DNA from: an uncultured Bacteroidales bacterium
GTDB lineage: Bacteria; Bacteroidota; Bacteroidia; Bacteroidales; Paludibacteraceae
Assembly (NCBI GenBank): GCA_902798385.1
Contig: CADBWK010000010.1
Coordinates: forward strand, 1-62,724
DNA length: 62,724 bases
Direction: 5' to 3'
A program made the translations under genes and the position numbers. Numbering within the stretch: position 1 is the first letter of the stretch; every line of letters starts with the position of its first letter. The notes under the pieces were generated by a model. It ran no database searches. It worked only from the letters and a program-made list of their open reading frames with translations, and was not told where the DNA came from. Below are positions 1,943 to 55,690 of this stretch, piece by piece.

Positions 1943-2734
1943 ATGATAAATCACCAATCAAAAATCACAAATCACAAATCCTACGACACGAAGCGTCCGC
2001 CGGAGAAAGAGATGATCTTCGGTATCCGTGCGGTGATGGAAGCCATCGATGCCGGCAAAGTGCTTGATAAAGTACTGATTCGTCGCGATATGTCCTCTGC
2101 TATCGGCAGAGAGTTATTGTTGAAGTTGGAAGGCACCGGAACGCAGATCCAACGTGTGCCGTTGGAGAAACTCAATCAGTTCACCGATAAGAATCATCAA
2201 GGTGTGATCGCATTCCTTAGCCCGATAGAGTTCACACCGTTGGATAGTTTGGTGCAGAGCCTGTATGACGAAGGTAAGACGCCGTTACTGATGATGCTGG
2301 ATGGTGTAACAGACGTACGCAATTTCGGTGCGATCGCACGTACCTGCGTGTGCGCAGGTGTACACGCGCTTATTATAGGTACGCGCGGTAGTGCAGCTAT
2401 CAACGGCGATGCCGTCAAAGCCTCTGCGGGTGCGTTACATTCCCTGCCTATTTGCAAGGTGGAGAACTTGCAGAACGCATTGACCTATCTCCGTGACAGC
2501 GGTTTAAGCATCGTAGCAGCTACCGAACACACCGATCGGAACTACACGGAAGTCGATATGACCGTGCCGACTTGTATCGTCATGGGGTCCGAAGAGAAGG
2601 GTATCTACGAAGAGAACCTCAAACTCTGTACGGATAAGGTGCGTTTGCCGATGACCGGCACGATCGAGTCACTCAATGTTTCTGTGGCAGCCGGTGTATT
2701 CATTTATGAAGCTATCCGCCAAAGAGGGTTATGA
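1943..2734 (+). CDS. rlmB: 23S rRNA 2'-O-ribose methyltransferase, TrmH/SpoU family (RlmB-like)
   Basis: SAM-dependent SPOUT methyltransferase expected to modify a guanosine in 23S rRNA. A substrate-binding N-terminal domain is followed by the SPOUT knot motifs DGVTDVRNFGAIARTC, MGSEEKGI and SLNVSVAAGVF. The first 20 or so residues are abnormal: they are encoded by a 7-bp-period repeat array and have no counterpart in the family, whose proteins usually start near the EMIFGIRAV motif. The true start could be the ATG at 2012 instead of 1943. Its stop overlaps the next start by 4 bp (ATGA), so the two are probably translationally coupled. Confidence 0.9.
   Translation: MINHQSKITNHKSYDTKRPPEKEMIFGIRAVMEAIDAGKVLDKVLIRRDMSSAIGRELLLKLEGTGTQIQRVPLEKLNQFTDKNHQGVIAFLSPIEFTPLDSLVQSLYDEGKTPLLMMLDGVTDVRNFGAIARTCVCAGVHALIIGTRGSAAINGDAVKASAGALHSLPICKVENLQNALTYLRDSGLSIVAATEHTDRNYTEVDMTVPTCIVMGSEEKGIYEENLKLCTDKVRLPMTGTIESLNVSVAAGVFIYEAIRQRGL
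1946..1980 (+). repeat. Heptad (7-bp period) array at the rlmB start
   Basis: About five units of 7 bp, each starting AAT: aatcacc, aatcaaa, aatcaca, aatcaca, aatcc. It lies just after the annotated ATG and would encode a low-complexity N-terminal extension of RlmB. Same class as the arrays at 4911, 51986, 54663 and 55664. Confidence 0.85.
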
Positions 2735-3411
2735 CGGTTTTATACGAAGATAATCATATTATTGCCGTCAACAAGACCTGCAACGAGATCGTGCAGGGCG
2801 ATAAGACCGGAGACACGCCCCTTTCGGAAATCGTCAAGGCCTATATCAAAGAAAAGTACAACAAACCCGGCGAGGTCTTTCTTGGCGTAACTCATCGTTT
2901 GGATCGTCCTACGAGCGGGGTAGTGCTCTTTGCTCGAACCAGCAAAGCCCTCACCCGTCTCAATGAGATGTTTAAGTCCCATGAGCAGATCAAAAAGACC
3001 TATTGGGCTATCGTACAAGGCTGCCCTAAACAACCCGAAGCACGACTCGAAAACAGGCTGATTCGTAACGAGACACAGAACAAAAGCTATATTGCCAAAC
3101 CGCACGCAAATAATGCGAAGCAGGCCATTTTGGAATATAAAACCTTAGTTCGCGGCGAAAACTACACGCTTTTAGAGGTTAATCTGGAGACCGGACGTCA
3201 TCATCAGATACGCTGTCAATTGGCTGCAATCGGCTGTCCCGTGAAGGGCGATCTGAAATATGGATCCAAACGCTCCAATCCCGATGGAGGCATATGCCTG
3301 CACGCACGAAAAATAGAATTTATTCACCCTGTAAGTAAAGAAAATATATGTATTACAGCTCCCGTTCCAAACGATTCTTTGTGGCAGCAACTCTCTGCCT
3401 CTGTTCAGTAA
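2731..3411 (+). CDS. RluA-family pseudouridine synthase
   Basis: Converts uridine to pseudouridine in rRNA or tRNA; the exact target cannot be told. The catalytic aspartate lies in HRLDRPTSGVVLFA, and the family signatures LETGRHHQIRCQLA and GDLKYG follow. There is no N-terminal S4 domain, so it is the short RluA/RluC-like form (226 aa). It overlaps rlmB by 4 bp upstream and the lyase gene by 64 bp downstream in another frame. Confidence 0.9.
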   Translation: MTVLYEDNHIIAVNKTCNEIVQGDKTGDTPLSEIVKAYIKEKYNKPGEVFLGVTHRLDRPTSGVVLFARTSKALTRLNEMFKSHEQIKKTYWAIVQGCPKQPEARLENRLIRNETQNKSYIAKPHANNAKQAILEYKTLVRGENYTLLEVNLETGRHHQIRCQLAAIGCPVKGDLKYGSKRSNPDGGICLHARKIEFIHPVSKENICITAPVPNDSLWQQLSASVQ

Positions 3412-5027
3412 TTGCATCAGCGGCTGTGTTGCCGGACACCCTTCTTGCCTTCCCGGGCGCAGAAGGATTCGGTAAGTACACTTCCGGTGGTCGCGGAGGT
3501 AAGGTGGTTTATGTCACTAGTCTGGCAGATGATGCCAATGGTGATACCGAAGGAACGCTCCGTTGGGCTATGAAACAGTATCCGAACGAACCGCTTACAG
3601 TATGCTTTGCCGTAACAGGTGAGATACGGCTCGTCAAGGATCTGCGTATCAACCGCAAGAACTACACGATAGCTGGTCAAACAGCGCCGGGAGTGGGAAT
3701 TGTCATCACGCACAATAAGGTTAATTGTGGCGGTTCAGAGAATTTTATTATTCGTAATATACGCTTCCGCGTAGGAAATGAGACGGCCGGCGGAGACTTT
3801 TGCAAAGAGAACGCGTTCGGAGCGGAGAATAGTAGTAATTTCATCATCGACCACTGCGATTTTGGTTGGTCGGCAGAAGAGAACATCAACACGTTCGACG
3901 GGCATTTCTTTACAGTACAATACTGCCTGGTACACGAGGGATTATATAATTCCGGTCACCCCAAGGGCGCGCGCGGATACGGCTGCCAGTGGGGAGGTTC
4001 GCCTGCTTCCTATCATCATAACTTGTTAGCCCATAATAACGGCCGTTCATGCCGTTTTAACGGTGCACGTAATAATGATCGCGTGGTGTATTTGGACTAT
4101 ATCAACAATGTGAATTTCAATTACTACGGTGGTAGTAGCGGTTGTCACGGAGGTGAGAATACCTGCGATGACAAGTATTATAACGGCAAGAACTCCGGGC
4201 ATGAGGTGAATTTTGTCAATAACTACTATATCAAAGGACCGAATACAACGAACACACGTCTTTTCTTCGTGGCAGATGAGAAACGAAAGGATGGAGATCC
4301 AAGTAAGGGACCGAGCCAATGGTACGTTAATGGCAATATTTATGAAGGAGAACCCAATGCAACAGCCAATAACTGGAGTGCGGTAACGATCAAGACTTAT
4401 ACCGAAGAGCAAGCACGCGTAGACACGCTTATCCGCACGAAGACGCCTTATTGGGACTGTAACGCCGACTCAACGGAGTTCTCGGGTTTGTATGATTTTG
4501 AGATGTACGCTTATGCCGTAGAGTCTTTTGAGACGGCAGAACAAGCGCGGCAGAATGTCTTAGACACCGTTGGGGCTTTCCCCCGTGACCACGTGGAGAA
4601 ACGTATCATTGCAGAGACGCGCGATAACACCTACACCTATTCGGGGAGCAAAAGCAAAAAGAAGGGTATCATCGATACACCCGCTGATGCGGAAGGTTTC
4701 TATGACTATACCGTTGTAGCACCTTTGCAAGACACCGACCTCGATGGCATGCCGGACACTTGGGAAATCGCCAATGGCTGTGACCCGAATACACCGGATA
4801 ACAACGTCCGCCATGCGAGCGGTTATACCATGCTCGAGATGTATCTGCACTACGCCATGACTCATAAAGCTCCCATGGACGATGGCTACCAAGAACCGCA
4901 GGGAGTTGAAATAACCAATTACCAACAACCAATCACCACTAAAATACTCCGCGACGGACAGATTTATATCCAACGCGGAGCAAAAACATACACCCTTCAT
5001 GGGCAACTTATAGAGGCAGGTAAATAA
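3348..5027 (+). CDS. Secreted pectate-lyase-like (PL1-type) beta-helix protein with C-terminal tail
   Basis: Predicted polysaccharide lyase that cleaves pectic polymers outside the cell. A signal peptide (about 1-26) is followed by the Bacteroidota PL1 start FPGAEGFGKYTSGGRGGKV and a right-handed parallel beta-helix (about 30-390) rich in Asn ladders and metal-binding Asp/His. Near residue 460 is a calcium-type loop, DTDLDGMPDTWE. The last 40 residues are a linker encoded by a heptad repeat and the shared tail GQIYIQRGAKTYTLHGQ. The ATG at 3348 lies inside rluA; it is chosen because it gives a normal signal peptide. The 3' end overlaps rsmG by 20 bp tail to tail. Substrate specificity is inferred only from family. 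Confidence 0.82.
   Translation: MYYSSRSKRFFVAATLCLCSVIASAAVLPDTLLAFPGAEGFGKYTSGGRGGKVVYVTSLADDANGDTEGTLRWAMKQYPNEPLTVCFAVTGEIRLVKDLRINRKNYTIAGQTAPGVGIVITHNKVNCGGSENFIIRNIRFRVGNETAGGDFCKENAFGAENSSNFIIDHCDFGWSAEENINTFDGHFFTVQYCLVHEGLYNSGHPKGARGYGCQWGGSPASYHHNLLAHNNGRSCRFNGARNNDRVVYLDYINNVNFNYYGGSSGCHGGENTCDDKYYNGKNSGHEVNFVNNYYIKGPNTTNTRLFFVADEKRKDGDPSKGPSQWYVNGNIYEGEPNATANNWSAVTIKTYTEEQARVDTLIRTKTPYWDCNADSTEFSGLYDFEMYAYAVESFETAEQARQNVLDTVGAFPRDHVEKRIIAETRDNTYTYSGSKSKKKGIIDTPADAEGFYDYTVVAPLQDTDLDGMPDTWEIANGCDPNTPDNNVRHASGYTMLEMYLHYAMTHKAPMDDGYQEPQGVEITNYQQPITTKILRDGQIYIQRGAKTYTLHGQLIEAGK
4911..4943 (+). repeat. Heptad array in the linker before the C-terminal tail of the lyase
   Basis: Units aataacc, aattacc, aacaacc, aatcacc, then act: a 7-bp period in frame inside the coding sequence, giving the linker ITNYQQPITT directly before the sorting-like tail. 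Confidence 0.8.
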
Positions 5028-6355: not shown

Positions 6356-9007
6356 TTAATTGTTATTTTCTTTATCGGGAGCATCTTCTACCGGTTGGGG
6401 ATCAGCGTGGTCGAGGACGGTCTCAATATGTACTTCCTCGAAACTGATCTTGAACTCAACGCGGCGGTTCTTTGCACGACCGGTCTTGGTGTTGTTATCA
6501 GCAATCGGTTGATCTTGACCGTATCCGACAGCCGTCATGCGTTGGAAGTCAACACCCTTCTTGATCATATAATCCATTACGGCCTGAGCACGTTTTTCAG
6601 ACAGGTTCTTGTTCGCCTCTGCATTACCGGTGTTATCCGTGTGACCCTGAACCTCAATGATATAATTGCTGTTCTCAATGAAGATATTAGCAATCTGGTC
6701 GAGGAGCGGGTAGGATTTCTTTTTGATAGTTGCCTTGCCGGTCTCAAACTCGATACCTTGCATTGCTTTTTGGAGCAATTGACGAACCTCACGTTTCAGT
6801 TCCGGACAACCCTTATTCTCTTTCAAACCAGGTACAGTCGGACACTCGTCTTTATAGTCAGGTACTCCATCTGCATCACTATCCAGCTCACAGCCCTTAG
6901 CGTCTACATGACCCCATGCTGCTTTCGGCGTGTTAGGACACTCGTCCATATAGTCAGCTACGCCGTCGCCGTCACTATCGATCGGACAACCCTTGGCATC
7001 GACTTTGCCATGAGCCTCTTTCGGCGTACCCGGACACTCATCCAGATAATCAGCTACGCCGTCACCATCGGTATCCATCGGACAACCCTTGGCATCAACT
7101 TTGCCATATGCCTCTTTCGGCGTACCCGGACACTCATCCAGATAATCAGCTACACCGTCACCATCGGTATCCATCGGACAACCTACGCTATCCACCATAC
7201 CGCGTGCGGCCTCCGGAGTGTTCGGACAACGATCCTTGTAGTCCTCAACACCATCACCGTCGGTATCTAATGCACAGCCAACGCTATCCACGAAACCGAT
7301 TGCGGCTGCCGGCGTTCCCAGACAGTGGTCTAAGTAATCAGGTACACCATCGTGATCCTCGTCCAACGGACAACCGTTCTCGTCCACTTGTACACCACGC
7401 GGCGTATCCGGACACATATCGAGTTTGTCCCACACGCCGTCTTTATCTTTATCCTTGCGGTTGGACCCCCAGCAAATGGAGAAACCGAGCGCGAGATTAA
7501 CCATCTTTGCCTTATAGGGCAGCACATACTTGTCGCTGTTCGGCAATTTAGCATAACTCGTCGGGATATAATCCATAGCAAGCGTAAGGTTGATTCCGTC
7601 GTACGGCATAAATCCGATACCGGCGCCAATATTGCTGTACTTGCCGTTGTTCATCAACGAGTAGCTCACGGCAATATTAAACCAGTTGACCGGACGGAAT
7701 GCCGCACCGAACGTAACTTCTTCGTACAAACGCGCATTGTACAGACGAGTCGCAGAAACGACACCGATACCAACGCGATTGTCCCAGAAGTTAGCATCCA
7801 GACCAATGTTCAGACGGGCTGATGTCATGCGAGCAAAGCCTTTTTTCTGGCCATCTCCGAAACGAACACCGTTTAACATATTGATCAGGTTGTTCGTTAC
7901 GGTGTCCATCAACATCTGGGTGTTGAAATTACCGTTCTCATCCTTATACTTGCTGTATTCGATATTTCCGGCTCCTTCAAACTTCACCTGAGAACTATCC
8001 AACGTACACTCGAAACGGGTAGCTTTCGTCCAATAGATGAAACCAAGATCGGTAATAGCTGCACTAACTTGCAGTTGCTCAATCGGCTTCCAGGTAAAAC
8101 CGAGGTCAATAGCAGCACCGTAGCCCGAAGGAACGGCCATCTTCATCAGTTTCTTGGTATCTACCTTGCCATCAGTCTTGTAATCGATCAGCTTGTCGAT
8201 ATCGAGTTTCTCAGCACTTGGATCTTTGCCGCTGATACCGTCATATATCTCTTTTCCGGTCTTGCCTCCTACGTATTGAGCCAGATAATCACCGTTAATC
8301 GGACCCGCTACATCAAGTTGCATCGTACCACCAATCTTCCACCATTCCGTATCGGCATACAGGTTGAGTTGCTTGTTGTTAAGACCGACATAAGCCGTTC
8401 CCAATAGCACTTTTAACTTACCACCGACTGTCCATTGGTCGTTGATCTTATGGCTGTATCCGCCTTCAATTTCGGTGTATATAGAGGCGCCGGCTCCTAA
8501 ACCCGAAAGACCTACGATGTTTTGAGCACCGTTGCTCAAGTTCTTCATACCGCCGCCTAAAGCAAATTCAAAGATAGACTTTGGCACGGTCGTTCCCATT
8601 TCGATGCGCTCATTGATACCAATCGTTAAGTACCCGTTATCTTTGATACGGAAACCCATGTTCAAGAAACCAATCGTCACGTCGCCGTTGAGATAAGTCA
8701 TACTACGCAACTGCTTCAAGAACTTACTCTTGTCCGCATTCGGGTGAAGTGGAGTGATCGTATTGCCGGTAGCAGGGTCAATGAAGAAGATGTCACTCAT
8801 TGTCAGCGAGTTGTCACCGATCCCAAACTGCGACCATCCAAGTGGAGTAAAGTTGATAAAACCTTGACTCACTGGTTGGAACGCCGGGTTGATCGTGTGA
8901 CGCATCGGCGCGTTCTCCAAGAAGTAGAGTGTGGTTACTTGCTGTGCACTTGCACTAATGGTTAGCATCGCCACGAGGGCTGCGAGAATAAAACGTTTCG
9001 TTGTCAT
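6356..9007 (-). CDS. DUF5723 beta-barrel, thrombospondin type-3 repeats and OmpA peptidoglycan-binding domain
   Basis: Outer-membrane anchor protein of 883 aa. Signal peptide (1-21); a DUF5723 barrel (about 25-510) beginning with TLYFLENAPMRHTINPAF; about eight TSP3 calcium repeats (520-760) of the form D-x-D-x-D-G-V-x-D-x2-D-x-C-P; then an OmpA domain (about 770-865) with the peptidoglycan-contact stretch GHTDNTGNAEANKNLSEKRA, and an acidic tail. The TSP3 units are nearly identical at DNA level (see 6985). It probably links the outer membrane to peptidoglycan through a calcium-stiffened rod. It starts 13 bp after the lipoprotein gene. Confidence 0.88.
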   Translation of the reverse strand: MTTKRFILAALVAMLTISASAQQVTTLYFLENAPMRHTINPAFQPVSQGFINFTPLGWSQFGIGDNSLTMSDIFFIDPATGNTITPLHPNADKSKFLKQLRSMTYLNGDVTIGFLNMGFRIKDNGYLTIGINERIEMGTTVPKSIFEFALGGGMKNLSNGAQNIVGLSGLGAGASIYTEIEGGYSHKINDQWTVGGKLKVLLGTAYVGLNNKQLNLYADTEWWKIGGTMQLDVAGPINGDYLAQYVGGKTGKEIYDGISGKDPSAEKLDIDKLIDYKTDGKVDTKKLMKMAVPSGYGAAIDLGFTWKPIEQLQVSAAITDLGFIYWTKATRFECTLDSSQVKFEGAGNIEYSKYKDENGNFNTQMLMDTVTNNLINMLNGVRFGDGQKKGFARMTSARLNIGLDANFWDNRVGIGVVSATRLYNARLYEEVTFGAAFRPVNWFNIAVSYSLMNNGKYSNIGAGIGFMPYDGINLTLAMDYIPTSYAKLPNSDKYVLPYKAKMVNLALGFSICWGSNRKDKDKDGVWDKLDMCPDTPRGVQVDENGCPLDEDHDGVPDYLDHCLGTPAAAIGFVDSVGCALDTDGDGVEDYKDRCPNTPEAARGMVDSVGCPMDTDGDGVADYLDECPGTPKEAYGKVDAKGCPMDTDGDGVADYLDECPGTPKEAHGKVDAKGCPIDSDGDGVADYMDECPNTPKAAWGHVDAKGCELDSDADGVPDYKDECPTVPGLKENKGCPELKREVRQLLQKAMQGIEFETGKATIKKKSYPLLDQIANIFIENSNYIIEVQGHTDNTGNAEANKNLSEKRAQAVMDYMIKKGVDFQRMTAVGYGQDQPIADNNTKTGRAKNRRVEFKISFEEVHIETVLDHADPQPVEDAPDKENNN
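6985..7176 (-). repeat. 96-bp tandem repeat encoding TSP3 units
   Basis: Two adjacent 96-bp copies (6985-7080 and 7081-7176) differ at only a few positions; more diverged copies continue on both sides. Each encodes 32 residues of the calcium-binding rod, so copy number could change by recombination. Confidence 0.85.
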
Positions 9008-18165: not shown

Positions 18166-18177
18166 ACCTATATTTTT

Positions 18178-18243
18178 TTAGTTATTCTTTAGTTCTTATT
18201 TAGTTATTCTTTAGTTATTATTTGGTTATTGTTTGGTTGTTGT
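18178..18243 (-). repeat. 11-bp tandem array, six units
   Basis: On the plus strand: ttagttattct, ttagttcttat, ttagttattct, ttagttattat, ttggttattgt, ttggttgttgt. It fills the gap between two genes and runs into the 3' end of the TraB-like gene, where it encodes the low-complexity end QNNNQTITK. Confidence 0.9.
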
Positions 18244-19144
18244 TTTGTTCTTTACCTACCTTTAAGCCTCTGTTTACGGCCCTTACACGGTATCCGATAG
18301 ACCTTAGCTGCTGTAACAACCCCTTCTCTCCACCCAGATAGATGGCGTTTAGCGTAATAAATGCCCCGCCTTCGCTCAGTATGGGTTTCAACCGTTTCGC
18401 CCATTCTACATTACGTTGTGCATACACTTTATAATCCGAAAATGAGATGGATGTCGTATTATTGGGTCCCTCTACCTGATACGCGATATCTGCCAAACGA
18501 CCGTCTCGGTACATATCCCGAATCGTTCGTTCTTGCTTCACTTCGTTCTCCGGATACTCGATCACTTTCAACAATTCCTTACATTGCCAATGAAACGGTT
18601 CTCTGTCAAAAAGCATATACATTGTCTCGCCCACATTATCTAACCCGACAACCGGCATATTGCGTCCGACAGCAACGGCTTCAAAGAAATTCTCCATCGA
18701 TTTCTCTTCATCATACCCGAGCCATTGACGCATCAATTCCGTCCGAAACATCTCCGTCAGATACGCCGGTTTCATCCTACACAACTGGTCTAAACCCATG
18801 CCTAAATTTATGCGAAGGCTATTGTTTATATACTCATACTCGCTTTCGCTATAAAAATTAGTCAATTTGACTGAGTCGGGCAGAACGGCCGCCTGACGTA
18901 ATGCAGCCAAAGCTTCATAGTCCTGCATCGCAAATTCTGTCACTACCTTACGGCATTTCCCAAAGCACTTAAACACATTCGGAATTGTGTCCAGAAACTG
19001 CATCTCAACCAACCGATTCGTGGCTAAAACATACGATTTGCTTCTCGCCCCGTTTCCGCTGATCTCATACAGAACTTGCGCCTCGGTGGAACAAAATCCA
19101 AAGCACAAAAGACAAACAACTGCTATGTATCTGAACGACTTCAT
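18218..19144 (-). CDS. TraB/GumN-like secreted protein lacking the usual histidines
   Basis: Signal peptide 1-22. The overall pattern matches the TraB/GumN (Tiki-like) family: an N-terminal strand YVLATNRLV where the family has GTxH, VVTEFAMQD holding a conserved Glu, RNVEWAKRL, and FITLNAIYLGGEKGLLQQL where the family has VGAxHLxGxxGLL. Both metal-binding histidines are therefore replaced (Arg and Tyr), so the protein may be catalytically dead or assigned to the wrong family. The C-terminus is encoded by an 11-bp repeat. It overlaps the TPR gene by 4 bp. Confidence 0.65.
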   Translation of the reverse strand: MKSFRYIAVVCLLCFGFCSTEAQVLYEISGNGARSKSYVLATNRLVEMQFLDTIPNVFKCFGKCRKVVTEFAMQDYEALAALRQAAVLPDSVKLTNFYSESEYEYINNSLRINLGMGLDQLCRMKPAYLTEMFRTELMRQWLGYDEEKSMENFFEAVAVGRNMPVVGLDNVGETMYMLFDREPFHWQCKELLKVIEYPENEVKQERTIRDMYRDGRLADIAYQVEGPNNTTSISFSDYKVYAQRNVEWAKRLKPILSEGGAFITLNAIYLGGEKGLLQQLRSIGYRVRAVNRGLKVGKEQNNNQTITK

Positions 19145-21093
19145 TTAAATCTCGTTATCAAATTATACGCTTGATAAATACCTAATTCTCCTGCCTTACT
19201 CAAATCGGATAATCCCTTTTCATTCTCGCCGATATATACATACGTCAACCCTCTGTTATAATAGGCTTCCGCAAAATCACCATCTTGGGCGATCGCCTTG
19301 GTATAATATGTTATAGCATCATTGTATTCCTTCTTGGCGCATAGGATGTTGGCTTTGTTATACATCGCAAAAGCAAAATCAGGTTGCATACGCAGTACTT
19401 GGTCATAGTCGCGCAAGATCAATTCATAGTCCCCGTCTGCCATCCGATAGCGCCAGTTGGCGCGGCAGAAGACTATAATCGGCTCTAATTCCCGGTTGGC
19501 TATCACAAGCGCCTTTGTGCAATCATCTACGGCACTCGCATAGTCCTTGATAATAGCGAACTCTATCGCGCGTGCCAGGTACAACTCCGCCGAAGGTGCC
19601 TCGTCCATCATCCGAGTCAAACGGTTGATGTTGGCAAAGTGATAATCAACCATCTCGGCGGAAAGCGTCAACTCCTGACAAGTGAACTTCAACGCCGCAG
19701 GGAGCGCCTCTCTCTTGTTTAACTTATCCACTAACGGATGGTAGTAGTTCGTACGTCGCAAACTTAGATCCTGACTATAATAGTTGAGAACTATATTCGG
19801 CTCATTCACTACGTCCTGATTGCGTTTCTGCACACTTCCTCGAGCCTGAGATTCGTATTTCTCTTCCTCTTCCGGAATGTCCGTTTGATTCTGCGCCGTA
19901 GAAGAAGAGAACTCCTTACGATGGTCTTTCTTCTGTGGCTGGGCATCCGCAATCAACAAATCGGTATTCGGTTGTGCTGCTTGCTGGGCTTGTATCTCAT
20001 CCTTGCGTTGTTCCAACTCATAGGCTTGTTGCCGGTATTGATATGCCCCTTTACTGTCGCCTAACTTTGTCTTCGCTTGTGCGGCAAGGTAGTAGGCTGG
20101 CAGGAAATACGGATAACGTTCAATTAAGGCATCCATATCGCTTACAACAGCTTTCCATTGTTTGAGTTGCATCTCTACCAAACCGCGCTGATAACGCATC
20201 TCTGTGCGCTCCGCATCCAAACTAATCGCTGTATTCAAATCTTCCAACGCGTGGTTATAATCGCCTACTTCCTGACGCATCACGCCGCGGTTATAATAAC
20301 AATCAGCATCCCGAGGCGCAATCTTCACGGCTTGATCATAGTCTGACAGCGCACCGCGATAATTATGCCGATGGTAATGAATGATACCGCGGTTGATATA
20401 ATCACCTGCCCATTTGGAACCCAAGTTAATCGCTTGCGTCAGTTGTACATACGCCTCATCTTCCCGCTCTAACATCAGATTCGTTACACCCAAAGCCGAC
20501 CACGCTGCCGGGTTGTTCTTATCGTACTTAGTCGCTTTTTCAAAAGCATCCAACGCACAGAACGTATCTTTCTTTAACGAACAGATATGTCCTTTCTCTG
20601 ACCAAACAGAAGCCGATTGCGGCTCTCGTTTTAACATCTGTTCAATATCCTCCAAAGCCTCGTCGTAGTGCTTCCTTTGCGCCCGCGTATCCGCGCGTAA
20701 TAACATATAGGTGCGGTTCTCGGGAGAGAAACGTAAAGCCTCTGTATAATCTGCTTCTGCATCCTCTAAACGGTTCATTTGCCGGTAAATATAGCCTCGT
20801 GCATAATAGATACCGGGCGAGAAAGGATTCCGTTCTATGGCCGCATTACAGTCATTTAAAGCCCCTTGATAGTCCTCCAACTGAATCTTGGCAATCGCCC
20901 GATAAAAATAGGGCTCTGCTAAATATGGCTTCAGATGAATCACCTGGTTGAAATATTGAATAGACAGCACATAGTCCTCAAAATACAAGGCATTCCGACC
21001 AATCGCAGTAATACGATCGGTATTCAGTTGTGCTTCTGCCGGAACCAAAAACAACGACAAAAGTGCGAGGACTATTAACTTTTTACTCTTCAC
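19141..21093 (-). CDS. Secreted tetratricopeptide-repeat protein
   Basis: 650 aa with a signal peptide (LIVLALLSLFLVPAEAQ) and about fourteen TPR units in two blocks (about 25-370 and 470-645) separated by a Gln/Glu/Lys-rich linker (375-430). Typical units contain AYYNRGLTYVYIGE-like helices. TPRs bind other proteins, so this is probably a periplasmic scaffold. The start codon is GTG at 21093, lying inside a heptad repeat array. It overlaps the TraB-like gene by 4 bp. Confidence 0.85.
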   Translation of the reverse strand: MKSKKLIVLALLSLFLVPAEAQLNTDRITAIGRNALYFEDYVLSIQYFNQVIHLKPYLAEPYFYRAIAKIQLEDYQGALNDCNAAIERNPFSPGIYYARGYIYRQMNRLEDAEADYTEALRFSPENRTYMLLRADTRAQRKHYDEALEDIEQMLKREPQSASVWSEKGHICSLKKDTFCALDAFEKATKYDKNNPAAWSALGVTNLMLEREDEAYVQLTQAINLGSKWAGDYINRGIIHYHRHNYRGALSDYDQAVKIAPRDADCYYNRGVMRQEVGDYNHALEDLNTAISLDAERTEMRYQRGLVEMQLKQWKAVVSDMDALIERYPYFLPAYYLAAQAKTKLGDSKGAYQYRQQAYELEQRKDEIQAQQAAQPNTDLLIADAQPQKKDHRKEFSSSTAQNQTDIPEEEEKYESQARGSVQKRNQDVVNEPNIVLNYYSQDLSLRRTNYYHPLVDKLNKREALPAALKFTCQELTLSAEMVDYHFANINRLTRMMDEAPSAELYLARAIEFAIIKDYASAVDDCTKALVIANRELEPIIVFCRANWRYRMADGDYELILRDYDQVLRMQPDFAFAMYNKANILCAKKEYNDAITYYTKAIAQDGDFAEAYYNRGLTYVYIGENEKGLSDLSKAGELGIYQAYNLITRFK

Positions 21094-21106
21094 TATTCAC
21101 CTTTAT
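21070..21106 (-). repeat. Heptad array over the TPR start codon
   Basis: On the minus strand: gtgaata, gtgaaga, gtaaaaa, gttaata, gtcctcg. Seven-base period with GT leading each unit. It spans the PBP1A-TPR junction and encodes the first residues of the TPR protein. Confidence 0.7.
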
Positions 21107-27220: not shown

Positions 27221-27223
27221 TTC

Positions 27224-27256
27224 TTTAAACTTTCAACTTTAAACTTTCAACTGATC
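27224..27256 (+). repeat. Heptad array in the DUF4835-recN gap
   Basis: Plus strand: aactttc, aacttta, aactttc, aactgat. Seven-base period filling almost the whole 39-bp gap between two minus-strand genes. Confidence 0.85.
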
Positions 27257-32913: not shown

Positions 32914-32940
32914 AAATCTAAAATCTTAAATCTAAAATTA
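32914..32940 (+). repeat. Heptad array filling the thyA-folA gap
   Basis: Plus strand: aatctaa, aatctta, aatctaa, aatta, continuing the aatcata that covers the folA start codon. Exactly spans the intergenic gap. Confidence 0.85.
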
Positions 32941-33732
32941 GACGGACACTTGTCCGGCTATATGAGGATGCGGGTCGTATCCTTCTAAAGTGAAATCTTC
33001 GTATTGGAATCCGAACAAGTCTTTCACCTCGGGGTTAATAATCATCTTCGGCAGCGCTCTCGGCTCACGCGTCAATTGCAACTTCACCTGCTCCAAGTGG
33101 TTCAGGTAAATATGTGCGTCACCCAAAGTGTGTACAAAATCACCGCACTTCAAGCCCGTCACTTGCGCCATCATCTGCAGCAACAGCGCATAGCTGGCGA
33201 TATTAAACGGAACACCAAGGAAAATATCCGCGCTCCGTTGATAGAGCTGCAGACTCAACTTTCCGTCCGCTACATAGAACTGGAACAAACAGTGACACGG
33301 CGGTAATGCCATCTTCTCCACTTCTGCCACGTTCCATGCACTCACCATCAAACGGCGACTATCGGGATTGTTCTTGATCTGCTCCACGAGATTTTTGATC
33401 TGGTCGATATGTCCGCCGTTATAATCCGGCCAACTCCGCCATTGATGCCCGTAAACAGGCCCCAACTCACCGTTCTCATCGGCCCATTCGTTCCAGATAC
33501 GTACCCCATGATCCTGCAAGTACTTCACGTTCGTGTCGCCCTGCAAGAACCATAATAACTCATATATAATCGACTTCAGGTGCAGTTTCTTCGTGGTCAG
33601 CAACGGAAAACCGTCCTTCATCTTAAACCGCATCTGGTGACCGAAAACCGACATCGTTCCCGTGCCTGTCCGGTCATGTTTCACGGTGCCTTCTTCCAGC
33701 ACACGCTTGCATAAATCCAAATATTGTTGCAT
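32938..33732 (-). CDS. thyA: Thymidylate synthase
   Basis: Methylates dUMP to dTMP using methylene-tetrahydrofolate. Catalytic Cys in [22 protein letters not shown] at the N-terminus, [18 protein letters not shown] and [12 protein letters not shown] for substrate binding. 264 aa, the E. coli-size form. Stop and folA start are 24 bp apart. Confidence 0.97.
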
Positions 33733-38679: not shown

Positions 38680-38740
38680 TTTTCGATATGTTTTGGGTTA
38701 AATTTTTTGTCAATTTGGTGTTTTAGGATACCAAAATAAC

Positions 38741-38795
38741 CTACTAATCACCTACTAATCACCTACTAATCACCTACTAGTATCCTACTAATATC
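38741..38795 (-). repeat. 11-bp tandem array in the leader of the 145-aa gene
   Basis: Plus strand: ctactaatcac three times, then ctactagtatc and ctactaatatc. It lies between promoter and start codon, so it is transcribed as part of the 5' leader. Confidence 0.95.
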
Positions 38796-38820
38796 GGACT
38801 AAAAGTACCTAAATTGGTTG

Positions 38821-40350: not shown

Positions 40351-40409
40351 AAAAAGACACAAGGTAAAAGAAAAAGACACAAGGTAAAAGAAAAAGACAC
40401 AAGGTAAAG
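40351..40409. repeat. 20-bp tandem repeat, three copies
   Basis: Unit aaaaagacacaaggtaaaag at 40351-40370 and 40371-40390, the third copy one base shorter (40391-40409). It lies between the 69-aa gene and the FGE-like gene. Confidence 0.95.
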
Positions 40410-40457
40410 AAAATGGGCGGAAGGGACGGGGCGAAACATAGACGCGAGTATAGGATA

Positions 40458-45376: not shown

Positions 45377-47081
45377 AATAGTCCTCCTCGCCCTGTGCTC
45401 TTTGCTCCTGGTTCCTTGTTCCCTTCGGGCGCAACGGATTCCGGAGATGATCGAGTACACGGAGATTTACGATTTTCTGGAGGAGCTGACGACCGACGGC
45501 GTTATCTATACGAACGCCGCCATCAAACCCTATACCCGCGACTATATAGCCGCACGGCTGATGGAGGCGCAGAGTAGGGATTCGTTGCTCAACAAACGCC
45601 AGAAGGAAGACCTGCAGTTCTATCTGCAGAACTATGCCCTTGAGTGCGACACGCTCCCGACGTATTACTCGTACGGACATCGTCATGTAACACAATGGAA
45701 GACCAACGTGTCTAACCTCAACTTGGCTGACCCGAGTTTGCATATTCTGACGAAGGACAAGATTTTCAAGATGCGTGTTCGCCCGATTCTCGGCATGGAT
45801 ATCAGTTACAACAAGCAAGGCCTGCTGATGCATCGTATCTATGGCGCCGAGATCCAGATGGACATCGCGCATCACGTCTCTATCTGGGGCTCGATACGCG
45901 ATAACTCGTGGTCGGGACAAGGCGTCGACGGTTCTCGTATCACGAAACCCGCTTACCTCAACAATCTTGCCGGCGTGCAATACAAAGAGGCGAGTTACGG
46001 TGGTGATTTCTCCGACTCGCGTGGCGGTATATCGCTCTATGCTTGGTGGGGATCCATCGGTGTCCAGCGCGAACGGATCACTTGGGGTGACGCGCAACAT
46101 TGCTCGAACATTCTCTCGGCTCACAACCCCGCCGTACCGATGTTTACCATTCAAATCACGCCCTGTAAGTGGTTCCAGTTCGACTATTTCCACGCATGGC
46201 TGCCGTCGAACGTGATCGACTCGACCTATTGGTACACCGAGCAACAAACAGCAACGGGGACCCAACGCGAGTACCGCCCTGCCAATAAGTTCATGGCGGC
46301 GAACATGTTCACTTTCATGCCGATCAAATATATTCAGTTCAGTATCGGTAACTCGATCGTTTATGCGGAGCGGAACGTGCAAGCGGCGTATTTCATTCCG
46401 ATTGCGTTCTACAAATCGCTCGACCACCTGCTGACCAAAGGTCTTGCGACGGAGAACCAGAACTCGCAGGCCTTTGCCACCATCACTGTTCGTCCAACCG
46501 ATCACTTACGGCTTTACGGCTCGTTCTTTATCGACGAGTTCAAACTCAGCCGAATGAAGAAATCCGACCCGCAGCACAACCTGTACTCCTATCTGGTCGG
46601 TTTCAACTGGAGCGGTTGGCCGGTTAGAGGTCTGGCGCTGCGCGGAGAGTTTGTACGCTCGAACATAGCGACCTATGAACACTCGATCAAGGTGCTCGAT
46701 TATACCTCGAACAGCTACCAGATGGGGCATTATATGGGCTCGAACTCGCAGAGTATATGGTTACAGATCAGTTACCGTCCCACACGCAGCTTGCGCTTGA
46801 CGCTGGATTATACGAATGACACCAAATACACGGCGTACGATTATATTCGCGGAGATATCGGCAAGATCATTTCGGAAACACCGTTCAAGAACGCTATTTG
46901 GCGAAACGACGAGATCAAGTTCCGCGCGGTATATGAGGTGTTCAACAACTGCTACGCGCATGTGGACGCCGCGTTCAATTATGCGCGGGCAAATGATCCG
47001 GCGGACTTGGCGAAGTACTCGCCTGTTTATCTGCAAGGAAAGAAACTGACTTTCTCTTGCGGACTCAGTTTTGGCTTTTAA
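45357..47081 (+). CDS. Outer-membrane beta-barrel protein, Wzi-like
   Basis: 574 aa from the ATG at 45357, which overlaps the Skp-like gene by 20 bp (an upstream TTG is less likely). Signal peptide SKIVLLALCSLLLVPCSLRA; the mature part alternates Tyr/Trp/Phe and polar residues, ends with aromatic Phe (LSFGF) as barrels do, and has the ITWGDAQHCSNILSAHNPAVP region seen in Wzi-like capsule proteins of Bacteroidota. The family call is tentative. It shares a unit with its likely chaperone. Confidence 0.7.
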   Translation: MHVTRSKIVLLALCSLLLVPCSLRAQRIPEMIEYTEIYDFLEELTTDGVIYTNAAIKPYTRDYIAARLMEAQSRDSLLNKRQKEDLQFYLQNYALECDTLPTYYSYGHRHVTQWKTNVSNLNLADPSLHILTKDKIFKMRVRPILGMDISYNKQGLLMHRIYGAEIQMDIAHHVSIWGSIRDNSWSGQGVDGSRITKPAYLNNLAGVQYKEASYGGDFSDSRGGISLYAWWGSIGVQRERITWGDAQHCSNILSAHNPAVPMFTIQITPCKWFQFDYFHAWLPSNVIDSTYWYTEQQTATGTQREYRPANKFMAANMFTFMPIKYIQFSIGNSIVYAERNVQAAYFIPIAFYKSLDHLLTKGLATENQNSQAFATITVRPTDHLRLYGSFFIDEFKLSRMKKSDPQHNLYSYLVGFNWSGWPVRGLALRGEFVRSNIATYEHSIKVLDYTSNSYQMGHYMGSNSQSIWLQISYRPTRSLRLTLDYTNDTKYTAYDYIRGDIGKIISETPFKNAIWRNDEIKFRAVYEVFNNCYAHVDAAFNYARANDPADLAKYSPVYLQGKKLTFSCGLSFGF

Positions 47082-49820: not shown

Positions 49821-50741
49821 ATGAAAGTATTAGTTGCAACAGAGAAACCGTTCGCGAAAGTAGCCGTTGACGGCATTCGTGAAGTGGTAGAGGGCGCAGG
49901 ATACGAACTGGCGCTGCTCGAGAAATATACGGACAAAGCCCAACTCTTGGAGGCTGTCGCAGACGCAGACGCACTCATTATCCGTTCGGATATTGTCGAT
50001 GCCGCTGTTCTGGACGCAGCCAAACAACTCAAGATCGTAGTGCGTGCCGGCGCAGGTTACGATAATATCGACCTCGAGGCTGCTACTGCCCACAAAGTAG
50101 TAGCAATGAACACACCGGGTCAGAACAGTAACGCAGTTGCCGAATTGGCACTTGGTCTGATGGTTTATGCCGTGCGTAACTTATACAACGGTACGTCGGG
50201 CACCGAACTCAAGGGCAAGAAACTCGGTATCCATGCCTTTGGTAATGTAGGTCGTAACGTGGCTCGCATCGCGCAGGGCTTCGGCATGGATGTCTATGCC
50301 TACGACGCTTATTGTCCGGATGAGGCGATGATCGCCGCTAACGTGAAGCCGCTGCATAGTGCAGAGGAGCTGTACAAGACTTGCGATGTCGTAAGTCTTC
50401 ATATCCCGGCCACCGCTGAGACCAAGAACAGCATCAACCACGATCTCGTAAACCTCATGCCGAAAGGCGGCATCCTCGTGAACACCGCGCGCAAAGAAGT
50501 CATTGATGAAGAAGGTCTGATCGCCCTGATGCAAGAACGTGCCGACCTCAAGTATATGACGGATATTATGCCGGTGGCTGATGCGAAGTTCCGTACACTC
50601 TTCGAGGGACGCTACTTCGCAACACCCAAGAAAATGGGCGCACAGACGGCAGAGGCCAATATCAATGCCGGAATTGCCGCTGCAAAACAGATCGTGGACT
50701 TCATCCAAAATGGCAATACACGCTTCCAGGTAAATAAATGA
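49821..50741 (+). CDS. serA: D-3-phosphoglycerate dehydrogenase, short form
   Basis: First step of serine synthesis, NAD-dependent. 306 aa from the ATG at 49821 (1 bp after serC); the longer frame upstream lies inside serC. RAGAGYDNIDL, the Rossmann motif LGIHAFGNVGRNVARIA, and VNTARKEVIDEEGL are seen. It has no ACT domain, so no serine feedback through that domain is expected. It overlaps the next gene by 4 bp. Confidence 0.95.
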   Translation: MKVLVATEKPFAKVAVDGIREVVEGAGYELALLEKYTDKAQLLEAVADADALIIRSDIVDAAVLDAAKQLKIVVRAGAGYDNIDLEAATAHKVVAMNTPGQNSNAVAELALGLMVYAVRNLYNGTSGTELKGKKLGIHAFGNVGRNVARIAQGFGMDVYAYDAYCPDEAMIAANVKPLHSAEELYKTCDVVSLHIPATAETKNSINHDLVNLMPKGGILVNTARKEVIDEEGLIALMQERADLKYMTDIMPVADAKFRTLFEGRYFATPKKMGAQTAEANINAGIAAAKQIVDFIQNGNTRFQVNK

Positions 50742-51985
50742 TCAAGCGATTATTGACCATAATACTGACGCTTTGTGCCGTTGTGTCCTACGCTGCCGAT
50801 GTAGTATGCGTAGGCGCAGCGACGCAGGTCGTTAACGGTCGTGATACGATCTTTGTGTTCCGGGATGAGATTCACCTGCGTTCTACGCGCGGGGCGGTCG
50901 ATTGGTTTACGGAGGACGGAAGACGGATAGCAGCTAACACCGATGAGATATACCCGGACGACGGCATCTATCGGGTAGGGAACAGTCGTTTTATTGCGGT
51001 GAAATACCAGGAACTCGACTCGCTCTCGATCGCTATCGAACCGACCTGCATGAGTACGATCCTGCATATCACCGGTGTCGATGATTTCTTATCGCGCGCG
51101 CACACGTATTCCTTATCTTATAATGCGCTCGCGTGGAATAACGATGCATGGACGGATTCCTTGGTCGAAGATAGCGGAATGTTGGCAGCAACGCTCTATC
51201 TGCCGCCTTTGTATGACTCCACCACCATCACGCTTTGCTACGACAATGCGATCCGCCGCAGTCTGGATTTACCCCTTACTTGCGTTACGGCGACCTTGCC
51301 GCCGGATAGCGTGAAGGCAGTGAATATGCATTTGGTGGCTTTGGCTACCGCACGAGACGCCAAGAACGAGTTAGACCGTCCATCGGAACAACAACTCACA
51401 GACGGCAACTCCTATAGCGGAACCTTGGAGGTGGCGTTCTATTCCAATCCGACTCCCGCAGCCCGTTATTACAAGTGGTCGATCTATAAATCGACCCAAC
51501 ATATCGTGACACGGCGCGATAAGGATATCCGCTATGTCTTCTCGGATCCCGGTTCCTATCGCGTGGTGGGTGCGGTTAATAACGAGTACTGCACCTGTGA
51601 CTCGATGGAGAAAATCATCAATATATCCGAGTCGTACCTGCGTGTGCCAAATGTGTTTACACCGAACGGAGACGGCAAGAACGATGAGTTCCGCGTAGCC
51701 TTCCGTTCTATCAAAGAGTTCCATTGTTGGGTGTATAACCGTTGGGGCAAACTGGTCTATGATTGGACTGATCCCGAGAAAGGATGGGATGGAACGATCA
51801 ACGGTAAACCCGCCGTAGAGGGCGCTTATTTCTATGTCATTCGGGCTTTGGGAACTGATGCTGCCAAGGATGCAGGATACATGTCCAAGATCTCGTATAA
51901 CAAGAAAAAGAACAAGTCCGACCAATCGATCATCGGCGTGTATCAACTATCCGGAGATATCAATTTACTAAGAGGAAAAAGGTAG
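50738..51985 (+). CDS. Exported protein with gliding-motility-type C-terminal domain (type B sorting domain)
   Basis: 415 aa. Signal peptide LLTIILTLCAVVSYA, a beta-rich middle with a PKD-like strand set (FSDPGSYRVVGAVNNEYC), and an end that matches the gliding C-terminal / type B CTD: VPNVFTPNGDGKNDEFRV, YNRWGKLVYDWTDPEKGWDG, AYFYVI. Such domains direct export through the type IX system and surface attachment. Overlaps serA by 4 bp. Confidence 0.88.
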   Translation: MIKRLLTIILTLCAVVSYAADVVCVGAATQVVNGRDTIFVFRDEIHLRSTRGAVDWFTEDGRRIAANTDEIYPDDGIYRVGNSRFIAVKYQELDSLSIAIEPTCMSTILHITGVDDFLSRAHTYSLSYNALAWNNDAWTDSLVEDSGMLAATLYLPPLYDSTTITLCYDNAIRRSLDLPLTCVTATLPPDSVKAVNMHLVALATARDAKNELDRPSEQQLTDGNSYSGTLEVAFYSNPTPAARYYKWSIYKSTQHIVTRRDKDIRYVFSDPGSYRVVGAVNNEYCTCDSMEKIINISESYLRVPNVFTPNGDGKNDEFRVAFRSIKEFHCWVYNRWGKLVYDWTDPEKGWDGTINGKPAVEGAYFYVIRALGTDAAKDAGYMSKISYNKKKNKSDQSIIGVYQLSGDINLLRGKR

Positions 51986-52016
51986 AATATAAATTATAAA
52001 TTTGAAATCATAAATG
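51986..52016 (+). repeat. Heptad array in the gap before the M3 peptidase
   Basis: aatata, aattata, aatttga, aatcata, then aatgcg: 7-bp period filling the 28-bp gap (4 x 7), with the ATG start codon in the final unit. Confidence 0.8.
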
Positions 52017-54182: not shown

Positions 54183-54215
54183 AAATCCCGCCACTCGGAA
54201 GAGTAGGCGGGATTT
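54183..54215. terminator. Bidirectional intrinsic terminator
   Basis: Perfect stem AAATCCCGCC/GGCGGGATTT (54183-54192 with 54106+100-54215), with an inner ACTC/GAGT pair and loop GGAA. It serves the M3 gene on the plus strand and the candidate RNA on the minus strand. Confidence 0.85.
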
Positions 54216-54372: not shown

Positions 54373-54376
54373 GGTG

Positions 54377-54408
54377 CAAAGGTACTGCTTTTTTTTTATA
54401 TATGCAAA
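54377..54408 (-). promoter_or_regulatory. Promoter of the candidate RNA
   Basis: TTTG (54408-54405), 20-nt spacer CATATATA plus A-tract ending GCAG, TACCTTTG (54384-54377). No protein gene lies downstream on this strand before the terminator. Confidence 0.9.
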
Positions 54409-54468
54409 TTTTTTTTTATGTTTTTGAACATATTTTGCAAAATACACTTTACAAAAGCGCACTTTTTG

Positions 54469-55005
54469 CTATAAACGCTCCAACTCGATCACTTCGAGGT
54501 TGTCGATCTTACTGCCGTCGATCGTAAAACGCAACAATGTCTGGCAGGGTTGCCAACCTTGTTTACCGGCTGCGCCGGGGTTCATGGTCAGGAACTTAAA
54601 CTGCGAGTCATATTGTACCTTTAATATATGGCTGTGTCCGCAGACGAACAGATCGATAACATTGTTTATTTGTGATTGGTCATTGGTCATTTTTGATTCC
54701 AGACTTTTCTTAAACCATGGAATGAGCCACGGATTATAATGCCCGGGATAACCGCCGATATGCGTCATCAGCACATTGACATCTTCTACCTTAAAGCGAT
54801 AGAACTCACTCAGACTGTACCGTACATCGCCCGAGTCCATATTTCCGAATACAGCGCGGGTAGGCTTGAACTCTCGCAAGCGACGTAAGACGTCCTCCGA
54901 ACCGATATCCCCTGCATGCCAGATTTCATCCACGTCTTTGAAATGCTCGAAGACGCGTTTGTCCAACAGCCCGTGGGTATCACTCAGAACGCCGATACGT
55001 GTCAT
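54469..55005 (-). CDS. Metallophosphoesterase, YfcE/MJ0936-like phosphodiesterase
   Basis: 178 aa. Metal ligands in GVLSDTHGLLD, HAGDIGSEDVL, VFGNMDSGD and DLFVCGHSHILKV; the family hydrolyses phosphodiesters. The stretch ESKMTNDQSQINNVI just before the CGHSH motif is encoded by a heptad repeat and looks inserted into a loop. It overlaps the permease gene by 4 bp and ends the pheT-led unit. Confidence 0.9.
   Translation of the reverse strand: MTRIGVLSDTHGLLDKRVFEHFKDVDEIWHAGDIGSEDVLRRLREFKPTRAVFGNMDSGDVRYSLSEFYRFKVEDVNVLMTHIGGYPGHYNPWLIPWFKKSLESKMTNDQSQINNVIDLFVCGHSHILKVQYDSQFKFLTMNPGAAGKQGWQPCQTLLRFTIDGSKIDNLEVIELERL
54663..54700 (-). repeat. Heptad array inside the phosphodiesterase gene
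   Basis: Minus strand: aatcaaa, aatgacc, aatgacc, aatcaca, aataaac, aatgtta. Six 7-bp units in the coding sequence; shares whole units with the arrays at 1946 and 55664. Confidence 0.9.
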
Positions 55006-55667
55006 TTGCGGGTCAGTTTATCGATGACAACTATAGAAAGAACGATGGCAACGACGGCCACCGAAACGAAAACGGCAACGTCACGCAGATCGATCACACC
55101 ACGCGAGAGGGCGGAGTAGTGATCCTGCAGAAGCACCCAGTAGAGGATAAAACAAACCAAGGCACCTGCAATAAAGCACACGATCTGACTCTTGCTGAAT
55201 GTCGCGCAGAGCAGGCCTATAGCCATGAATGTACCGCTCAAAAGGATGAGCCCTATGAACGAACCCATGAACGCTCCGCTGTCCAGATTACCCATCGGTT
55301 CGGCCATGTATGCCACTACAAAATAATGCACAAAGCAGGGTAGCAGACCTATCAAAACCAATGTCCATGCGGCGAAATACTTACCGAGCATAATACGGCT
55401 AAGCGAGATAGGCTTCGTGCGAATGAGGTCCCAAATGCCGCTCTGGCGCTCTTCGGAGAGTAGGCGCATGGTCAATGCAGGACAGAGAAGCATAAAGAGC
55501 CATGGACTCAATTGAAAGAGTCCGTCCACTTGGGCGTATCCCGAGTCAATGATATTCCATTGACCCGGAATCACCCAAAGGAAGAGACTGATTGCCAACA
55601 GGTACAATCCGATGACGATGTACGCTATCGGCGTGGAGAAATAATATCTAAGTTCCTTACGGAACAT
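55002..55667 (-). CDS. ABC-2 type permease, GldF-like
   Basis: 221 aa with six membrane helices. MFRKELRYYFSTPIAYIV, LCPALTMRLLSEERQSG and LIRTKPISLSRIMLGKY match GldF/NosY-type ABC permeases. The usual partner GldG and the ATPase GldA are not next to it, so its substrate is unknown. Its first codon lies in the last unit of a heptad array. Confidence 0.85.
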   Translation of the reverse strand: MFRKELRYYFSTPIAYIVIGLYLLAISLFLWVIPGQWNIIDSGYAQVDGLFQLSPWLFMLLCPALTMRLLSEERQSGIWDLIRTKPISLSRIMLGKYFAAWTLVLIGLLPCFVHYFVVAYMAEPMGNLDSGAFMGSFIGLILLSGTFMAIGLLCATFSKSQIVCFIAGALVCFILYWVLLQDHYSALSRGVIDLRDVAVFVSVAVVAIVLSIVVIDKLTRK

Positions 55668-55690
55668 TGGTCATTTGTGATTTGTGATTT
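55664..55690 (-). repeat. Heptad array filling the symporter-permease gap
   Basis: Minus strand: aatcaca, aatcaca, aatgacc, aatgttc. The 21-bp gap is exactly three units and the permease ATG lies in the fourth. Confidence 0.9.

Follow-up and report, generated by a model that had tools for sequence, protein, structure and literature searches.

Degenerate seven-base arrays in gene gaps and protein loops of an uncultured Paludibacteraceae bacterium and its relatives, and their possible origin in a mutational process

The DNA analysed here, called the window throughout, is the whole stretch of 62,724 nucleotides of contig CADBWK010000010.1 (assembly GCA_902798385.1) from an uncultured Bacteroidales bacterium of the Paludibacteraceae. 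It carries short tandem arrays of seven-base units, which differ in sequence and often share an AAT core, and these arrays are found both in the gaps between genes and inside genes. An original prediction made from the sequence had listed ten such loci and had considered them an actively spreading or selected system of DNA words. We searched for arrays as local self-matches at a chosen lag (+1 for a match, −1.5 for a mismatch), using 60 local Markov shuffles as the background for the window. At lag 7, 11 segments with a score of at least 9 were found (shuffle mean 0.52, maximum 2), including seven with a score of at least 11 (shuffle mean 0.08, maximum 2), and lags 4-6 and 8-13 gave 0-3 segments per lag at the lower threshold. 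A lag-7 array is present at nine of the ten listed loci, all among these 11 segments; at the remaining one, 43322, the best lag-7 score is 6 over 13 nt and an array is not supported. Two arrays were not in that list, at 45390-45422 (score 11.0) and 50909-50927 (9.5).

The 5' end of the rlmB open reading frame (ORF; 1943-2734) carries an AAT-class array at 1949-1980 (plus strand, lag-7 score 17.5), and the RlmB family match begins at residue 22, past the array. A weak AAT-class array (4910-4938, plus; 9.5) is located near the 3' end of the ORF 3426-5027. Between the minus-strand genes 19141-21048 and 21103-23373, the latter being PBP1A-family-like with a PBP1A-family match below the cut-off, lies an array of the ACT/TTC class (21071-21100, strand not assigned; 10.5), in a gap that depends on the start call, as a longer ORF would extend to 21093. 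The array 27223-27252 (CTTTAAA/CTTTCAA, strand not assigned) has a perfect period of 14 and occupies the gap between a RecN/SMC-like gene (25643-27220, minus) and the gene 27260-28138 (minus), while the AAT-class array 32907-32938 (plus; 15) covers the gap between 32425-32913 (minus) and the gene for thymidylate synthase (32938-33732, minus; Pfam). The GCTCC/GTTCC-class array 45390-45422 (plus; 11), which reads LALCSLLLVPCSL and is signal-peptide-like, is in the same frame as the Wzi-like ORF 45447-47081 (Wzi match). From the stop of 50738-51985 towards the M3 peptidase ORF runs another weak AAT-class array (51970-52008, plus; 9.5), whose units fill the 28-nt gap 51986-52013 ahead of the ATG at 52014. 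An AAT-class array of the form TAA...AATG (55665-55690, minus; 14) spans the 21-nt gap between a nucleoside symporter gene (55689-56987, minus) and the gene 55002-55667 (minus). Inside genes, a short ACGGAAG array (50909-50927, plus; 9.5) lies in 50738-51985, and AAT-class arrays lie in aroE (29759-29792, plus and antisense to the gene at 29193-29909, minus; 12) and in a metallophosphoesterase gene (54668-54691, minus; 12; gene 54469-55005, minus). The former encodes the IGNLKLEIGHLL segment of AroE (Shikimate_dh_N Pfam match), which aligns to solved AroE structures with a one-residue gap there and almost no length change, and the latter is the loop ESKMTNDQSQINN of the metallophosphoesterase (Pfam; 16 orthologues aligned), a protein for which a PDB search gave no match. 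The idea that arrays exactly fill gaps therefore holds for some of them, but not for those at 29759, 54668 and 50909, which are in genes, nor for those at 4910 and 1949, which are at ORF ends.

The excess of lag-7 arrays extends to the rest of the genome. For the window's own genome (G000), the window and 20 further stretches were sampled (462.7 kb), and 83 lag-7 segments with a score of at least 14 were found compared with 0 in the shuffle. Lag 14, as a multiple of 7, gave 43 segments, and all other lags from 2 to 30 gave at most 11. In the whole assembly, the pattern (AATN4)x4+AAT has 77+71 = 148 matches, while the reversed pattern has 5+2 = 7. The lag-7 periodicity scan proposed in the original prediction is thus far above the shuffled level.

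Judged by a single carboxylase-like protein, uncultured Bacteroidales/Paludibacteraceae metagenome-assembled genomes (MAGs), many of them from rumen, are closest to the window's genome. We denote genomes by G and relatives' loci by L; some L loci may share genomes with G and stretches may overlap, and all tests ignore phylogeny, as no trees were used. Among 25 sampled congeneric genomes (26-462 kb per genome), the density of period-7 arrays ranges from 0 (G024, G028) to 31 per 100 kb (G035); several congeners have 0-3, and in G002, G011 and G024 period-8 arrays outnumber period-7 arrays. In 117 other Bacteroidota genomes, the AAT pattern has 2157 matches and the reversed control 855; in 28 genomes, the matches number at least 10 and exceed the control threefold or more, while the opposite holds in 2 and the two counts are equal in 36. 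Heptad arrays therefore reach across the phylum, but patchily. Since the window's assembly is 74% complete and in 44 contigs, an artefact of MAG assembly or binning may be considered, but this is highly improbable, because arrays occur in frame inside conserved genes across many independent assemblies, and some of the genomes that carry them are listed as 100% complete, among them G097, where matches fall on a contig at least 2.9 Mb long.

The words are diverse and recur. From 117 arrays of G000 with a score of at least 11, 66 consensus words were obtained, and they coincide 115 times compared with about 10 expected from intergenic 7-mers, which agrees with the recurrence between distant loci described in the original prediction; several unrelated words coexist within one genome. 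The mean word GC content is 0.30. Four-base palindromes are not enriched in period-7 words (0.39 against 0.38 expected), which speaks against an inverted-repeat (stem) core like that of repetitive extragenic palindromic (REP) sequences or bacterial interspersed mosaic elements (BIMEs). The most frequent period-7 anchor is AAT, with 38 loci in the G000 sample (next triplet 13) and 148 in other loci (next triplet 67). When triplets represented by at least 25 arrays are compared, the core that varies least is AAT/ATT, with variation in 0.18 of columns compared with 0.36 at the other four positions; the corresponding core values are 0.22-0.23 for AAA/TTT and 0.31-0.34 for TAA, TTA, ATA and TAT. 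Since the last four have equal base content and vary more, an A/T mutation bias accounts at most in part for the AAT core. The CG-holding triplets (CGG, CCG, CGT, ACG) were the most variable cores tested, opposite to AAT. The AAT core is variable in 22/156 array-columns of 52 coding arrays (80/208 elsewhere, p 3e-7) and in 49/240 array-columns of 80 noncoding arrays (112/320 elsewhere, p 2e-4), and because it is kept in coding arrays too, stop and start codons do not explain it. A simulation of core conservation, which ignores the inheritance of variant units, agrees with the triplet comparison.

One explanation of such arrays is classical heptanucleotide slippage, with period 7 favoured by how much DNA the polymerase holds, followed by point mutation. 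It is in keeping with the heptamer excess reported in many bacteria, with the higher-order periods of 14 and 21 in some arrays, and with the greater likeness of nearer units: in 62 noncoding arrays, the unit-to-unit match drops with distance from 0.852 (a value inflated by selecting arrays on lag 7) to 0.818 and 0.784. On the other hand, variation avoids the AAT core rather than spreading over all positions, and period 8 is commoner than 7 in the three genomes named above. A frame-keeping period of 21 in coding arrays was also considered; L107 and L108 are such cases, yet there is no excess (2:2 vs 10:13) and this candidate was rejected.

For placement, gene calls were made by a hexamer-based script prepared for this analysis, with no annotation used. 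From 3.92 Mb of the genus and relatives, 482 non-duplicate arrays with a score of at least 12 were collected, after dropping L111 (overlapping L100), exact duplicates with flanks, and arrays with N. Per 100 kb, there are 56 arrays outside gene calls compared with 5.2 within them (about 11-fold), and 175 of the 482 are within called coding sequence. Densities per 10 kb in G000 are 16.5 for co-directional gaps, 8.3 for convergent gaps, 2.3 for divergent gaps (2 arrays) and 1.3 for coding sequence, and 52 of 282 co-directional junctions have an array. The ratio of sense to antisense orientation relative to the genes is 39:20 for AAT arrays in co-directional gaps and in genes, where orientation by array class was omitted if ambiguous (51/117 arrays). 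Spacing of coupled genes, one of the roles proposed in the original prediction, is not supported as a general explanation, because 175/482 arrays are coding and the orientation is 39:20. Arrays often provide both stop and start (TAAAT...AATG). The original prediction also placed start codons in the last unit, and of 30 sense AAT arrays at junctions where an ATG lies in frame close to the array end, 17 are in the AATG phase, although this agreement is partly automatic because of the AAT core. A phase lock of start codons was accordingly rejected as proof of a translation role.

A selected function at the DNA or RNA level, either as a binding surface with AAT at 7-bp steps or as G-poor unstructured leaders aiding initiation without a Shine-Dalgarno sequence, would be consistent with the top density in co-directional gaps and the low density in divergent ones, the conserved core, the frequent supply of stop and AATG start, and the excess of words without G or C on one strand (0.71 compared with 0.56 expected). 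We consider it distinctly improbable, since the core is also strong in coding arrays, many orthologous junctions are array-free, several congeners have as few as 0-3 arrays per 100 kb, AAT arrays are oriented just 39:20 in the sense direction, and unrelated words coexist. For a protein reading 7-bp steps, which had been suggested, the kept AAT core is a favourable point, while the coexistence of unrelated words and the near absence of arrays from some congeners are unfavourable ones.

When orthologous junctions were aligned, as had been proposed together with the periodicity scan, arrays were found to come and go between close species (35 loci at the 51986-52013 gap and 14 loci at 55667/55689). 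Some species have arrays of 7, 8, 9 or 11 bp with differing words, and in others the same junction either has hardly any gap (−4 to a few nt) or has a longer, array-free one. Thus, of the earlier view that the period is fixed and the sequence is not, the second half is kept, because words vary while the step remains, but relatives show steps of 8, 9 and 11 as well, with 7 predominating. The clearest comparison is between L011 and L018, which are 89.7% identical over 17.7 kb: upstream of the carboxylase-like gene, the array has period 7 in L018 (AATTAAA/G) and period 8 in L011 (CGTCATGA), and the window and L012 have no array. L011 also has one period-7 array at another place. Period-8 arrays are located at L011:9953-9992, L011:19859-19907, L029:12769-12810 and L038:14263-14332 (words CGTCATGA, ATATCGAA and TCGACATA), and 27 of the 28 listed are outside called genes. 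A period-9 array, ACGTAGTTT, is present at two L016 junctions, and the window itself has 11-bp arrays with five to seven copies at 18177-18249 (TTTAGTTATTA) and 38735-38802 (AATCACCTACT); in 80 loci of relatives, 45 lag-11 segments have a score of at least 11.

Other repeats were noticed in the same data. A dispersed element starting AGACCGC...CTCAAAGTAGAAAG (or CTAAAAGAATAAAG) is found at junctions of L014, L015, L017, L024, L025, L049 and L057; in L017, L024, L049 and L057 it ends with a reverse-type sequence ahead of the next gene, and it has the look of a repeat family of its own or of a small mobile unit. In the window, 96-bp tandem repeats at 6922-7324 lie within the coding sequence 6356-9007 (minus) and are apparently thrombospondin-type-3-like acidic repeats, and a 20-bp tandem repeat, AAAAAGACACAAGGTAAAAG, has about three copies at 40351-40413, in a stretch without a called gene.

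Because close species fill the same junction differently, a copying or mobile process, in which an array at one locus is the template for others by ectopic microhomology-mediated template switching or gene conversion, has to be weighed. Exact word identity within genomes is 0.093 compared with a maximum of 0.031 in 300 label permutations, and a single word makes 8 of the 11 arrays of L018. However, at up to one mismatch the G000 words match one another no more often than words of different genomes do on average (0.089 in both cases), and the excess rests on small samples (L018, L014), in which neighbouring arrays are perhaps local duplicates. Neither target-site duplications nor element genes were noticed in the allele alignments, in which no systematic search for them was made. 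This process appears unlikely to be the general origin of the arrays. A genome-specific vocabulary was likewise rejected for G000, being unsupported at up to one mismatch (0.089 vs 0.089), although exact words, averaged over genomes, recur more often within a genome than between genomes.

Whole-unit differences between relatives, which slippage predicts, are seen at the 55667/55689 junction (14 vs 28 nt in L014 vs L015) and elsewhere (+7, +14 and +35). When alignment gaps of at least 4 nt in lag-7 arrays of close loci were counted, however, 4 of 27 were multiples of 7, with gap placement within repeats being ambiguous.

Arrays inside genes provide a direct comparison with array-free alleles. 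In the G000 sample, 54 of the 117 arrays are inside 39 called genes, and the mean length of arrays compared inside genes is 32 nt. Searches confirmed AroE (Pfam, PDB) and TsaD (PDB) as array-bearing genes, and the TsaD array is a 12-residue insertion relative to 3zet. Other array-bearing genes, named from their translations, are presumably HisS, UvrA, MurC, MurG, RsmH, MutY and Rho, to which we would add, on the same assumption, Mfd, Dxs, IspH, DapB and LepB. Of 41 genomes, 36 have a DapB-like orthologue, and an alignment was made of 30 loci from G000 and 29 congeners. Loop sites with array words read EELEIGDWRLKIEG, EELKIKNYELKIKD, QFTIHNAQCTI and EELRGKREELREKTG, and the same sites elsewhere are array-free, with the loop being short in some and longer in others. 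A second, non-heptad insertion (peptides PSGSLLEGERM, PSLPEGKE, PSLQGGAGGR and PSPEGKG) was observed in the DapB loops of L116, L121, L127 and L135 and in the carboxylase linker of L029 and L016, and one gap of L021 holds a C-rich/G-rich inverted repeat, which is perhaps the intergenic form of the PSGSLLEGERM-type insertion.

The allele comparison covers 110 coding arrays for which a homologue without an array exists at 50% or higher amino acid (aa) identity; proteins shorter than 80 aa or containing X, arrays lying 15 residues or fewer from either end of the protein, and homologues holding their own lag-7 segment were excluded. The array allele is longer in 82 pairs, equal in 10 and shorter in 18 (median net change +4 aa), and in the 23 pairs at 84% identity or higher, the net change is −5 to +14 aa. 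DNA alignments of the two alleles mostly show a short segment replaced. Between the dxs-like genes of G000 and G003, which share 94% aa identity, the replacement is reciprocal: where either one has an array, the sequence of the other is ordinary. Coding arrays thus stand in for short, weakly constrained segments, in frame and with small changes of length.

The origin of these coding arrays was examined by searching the array word in the array-free allele as a seed. The best match is 5.31/7 compared with 5.26 (sd 0.06) in shuffled pairs; a match of at least 6/7 occurs in 40 of the 110 pairs compared with 36.3 in shuffled pairs, and in 7 of the closest 23 pairs compared with 7.3. The net change is a multiple of 7 aa in 19/110 pairs, about the chance share. 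Because the word is not enriched and lengths are not multiples of seven residues, these data point to replacement rather than pure slippage, and slippage alone, for which the original prediction had allowed a place during repair, does not serve as the origin. Taking these points with the 4/27 whole-unit gaps, the spared AAT core and the genomes rich in period 8, we regard the slippage explanation as a whole as rather unlikely, even with the whole-unit differences in its favour.

We therefore tentatively favour a genome-wide, fast-turnover degenerate heptanucleotide satellite arising from a mutational process, not a signal system, with a rough probability of 0.45. A small local loss of sequence would come first, and error-prone repair synthesis would then re-prime repeatedly on a 3-bp AAT match about 7 bases back, so that the units written are related without being equal. 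The copy number would be changed afterwards by ordinary slippage, and purifying selection would remove tracts that break a frame, a fold or a promoter. The core at a fixed step, the replacement without a general seed and the occasional changes by whole units would fit re-priming followed by slippage. Judging from where the arrays lie in the sequences, tolerance may account for their placement in operon gaps, loops, linkers, protein ends and signal-peptide-like stretches, the last represented by the array at 45390 of the window (LALCSLLLVPCSL) and that at 13731 of L018. As to the spreading or selected word system of the original prediction, arrays are indeed beyond chance and differ at the same place between close species, but a function was not shown.

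Several results weigh against the mutational process that we favour. Period 8 versus period 7 at the same junctions of L011 and L018 makes a step set by a conserved polymerase hard to hold, and the recurrence of words at distant G000 loci (115 vs about 10) is not predicted by local re-priming alone. With 4/27 whole-unit gaps, slippage as a later step is only partly supported. The exact (7/7) word is found in the array-free allele in 7 of 110 pairs compared with 3.1 in shuffled pairs, so that a few seeds may exist, and the proteins of the compared pairs are 4-50% different, a distance at which intermediate steps are hidden and a seed may have been lost.

Finally, among MutS, reverse transcriptase and Y-family polymerase, no enzyme was linked to the arrays. 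Mismatch-repair loss was rejected on the presence of MutS (MutS_V) in 60 of 61 genomes, the one without it being G018 (54% complete), and G000 has two matches in open frames. A reverse transcriptase or diversity-generating retroelement (DGR) as the writer was rejected for the six array-rich genomes G000, G006, G019, G021, G034 and G035, which have no RVT_1 match at a completeness of 97% for G034 and G035, 74% for G000 and 63% for G021. A Y-family polymerase was suggestive in the more complete genomes, but was set aside when its relation to lag-7 density in 25 genomes gave p=0.084, and that to AAT counts in 37 genomes p=0.081, phylogeny being uncontrolled in both. The window has a Y-family DNA polymerase gene at 61103-62353 (minus; domains IMS, IMS_C and DUF4113), whose product we take to be UmuC-like.

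Comparison with known systems helps to place the arrays. Rickettsia palindromic elements are long palindromes inserted in frame in protein genes. The present arrays resemble them in that in-frame repeats are tolerated inside conserved genes, but differ in being short-period, not enriched in palindromes, and replacing rather than inserting. Short tandemly repeated repetitive (STRR) sequences of cyanobacteria consist of a few fixed words; they resemble the present arrays in that heptamer arrays are dispersed through the genome. Calothrix heptamers are included among them in the part of PMC4692102 that we consulted, where G-rich heptamer simple sequence repeats (SSRs) are also described as G-quadruplex-forming and intergenic (GGGAATC in Xanthomonas and GGGGAYT in Nostoc). 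These SSRs share with our arrays the heptamer period, heterogeneous units with conserved positions (GGGANTN) and variation in length and sequence between close relatives, but, as far as that part goes, differ from them in being G-rich and intergenic, the present words having a GC content of 0.30 and the arrays entering genes too. The same part notes a heptamer excess in bacteria and cites an earlier hypothesis of polymerase contact from 2007, while prokaryotic repeats with units of 4-11 bp are normally or weakly over-represented according to the consulted part of PMC4060949.

In the literature covered, the closest parallel to our arrays is formed by direct repeats of TAACTGA, which occur in Beggiatoaceae, Cyanobacteria and part of the Bacteroidetes (MacGregor, 2015; PMC4679880) and are described here from portions of that article. 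They too are tandem heptamers at many loci, mostly intergenic and often ending at a start codon. Their indels are mostly in 7-nt steps between two Cyanothece strains, some are in ORFs, heptamer mixtures occur in Microcystis and Elizabethkingia, and Paludibacter has two sets. In those portions, the repeats are of one exact word, with single-base variants rare as direct repeats, while our arrays have many words and a 3-bp core with freer other bases, and are coding in 175/482 cases, replacements in conserved genes among them. For the forward orientation just upstream of starts that is seen in BOGUAY, our arrays give a mixed picture: they are enriched in co-directional gaps, but the AAT class is 39:20 sense and many arrays are coding. 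Neither the 25 commonest necklaces of G000 nor the 40 commonest of all include TAACTGA. In the literature covered (titles and abstracts, with few subscription papers), we found neither degenerate AAT-anchored heptads nor heptad replacement in conserved Bacteroidota genes. The heptamer excess in bacteria is already known, and the anchored degenerate form and the coding replacement look new.

Since the same site can be compared with and without an array in close species, and since core and step are measurable, the origin of the seven-base step is testable. For gene calling and phylogenetics, caution is advised, because starts made by arrays, N-terminal extensions and loop peptides (LEIGDWK, ITNYQ, VESGE) are not conserved sequence. 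The arrays suggest a mutation process that rewrites protein loops. A stronger form, in which a dedicated Bacteroidota enzyme or repair complex overwrites short stretches with AAT-anchored seven-step DNA, seems doubtful to us; if true, it would generate diversity in protein loops throughout the lineage, with a step (7, 8, 9 or 11) and words that change from one close species to another, and operon gaps, protein loops and signal-peptide-like stretches would be under continual rewriting.

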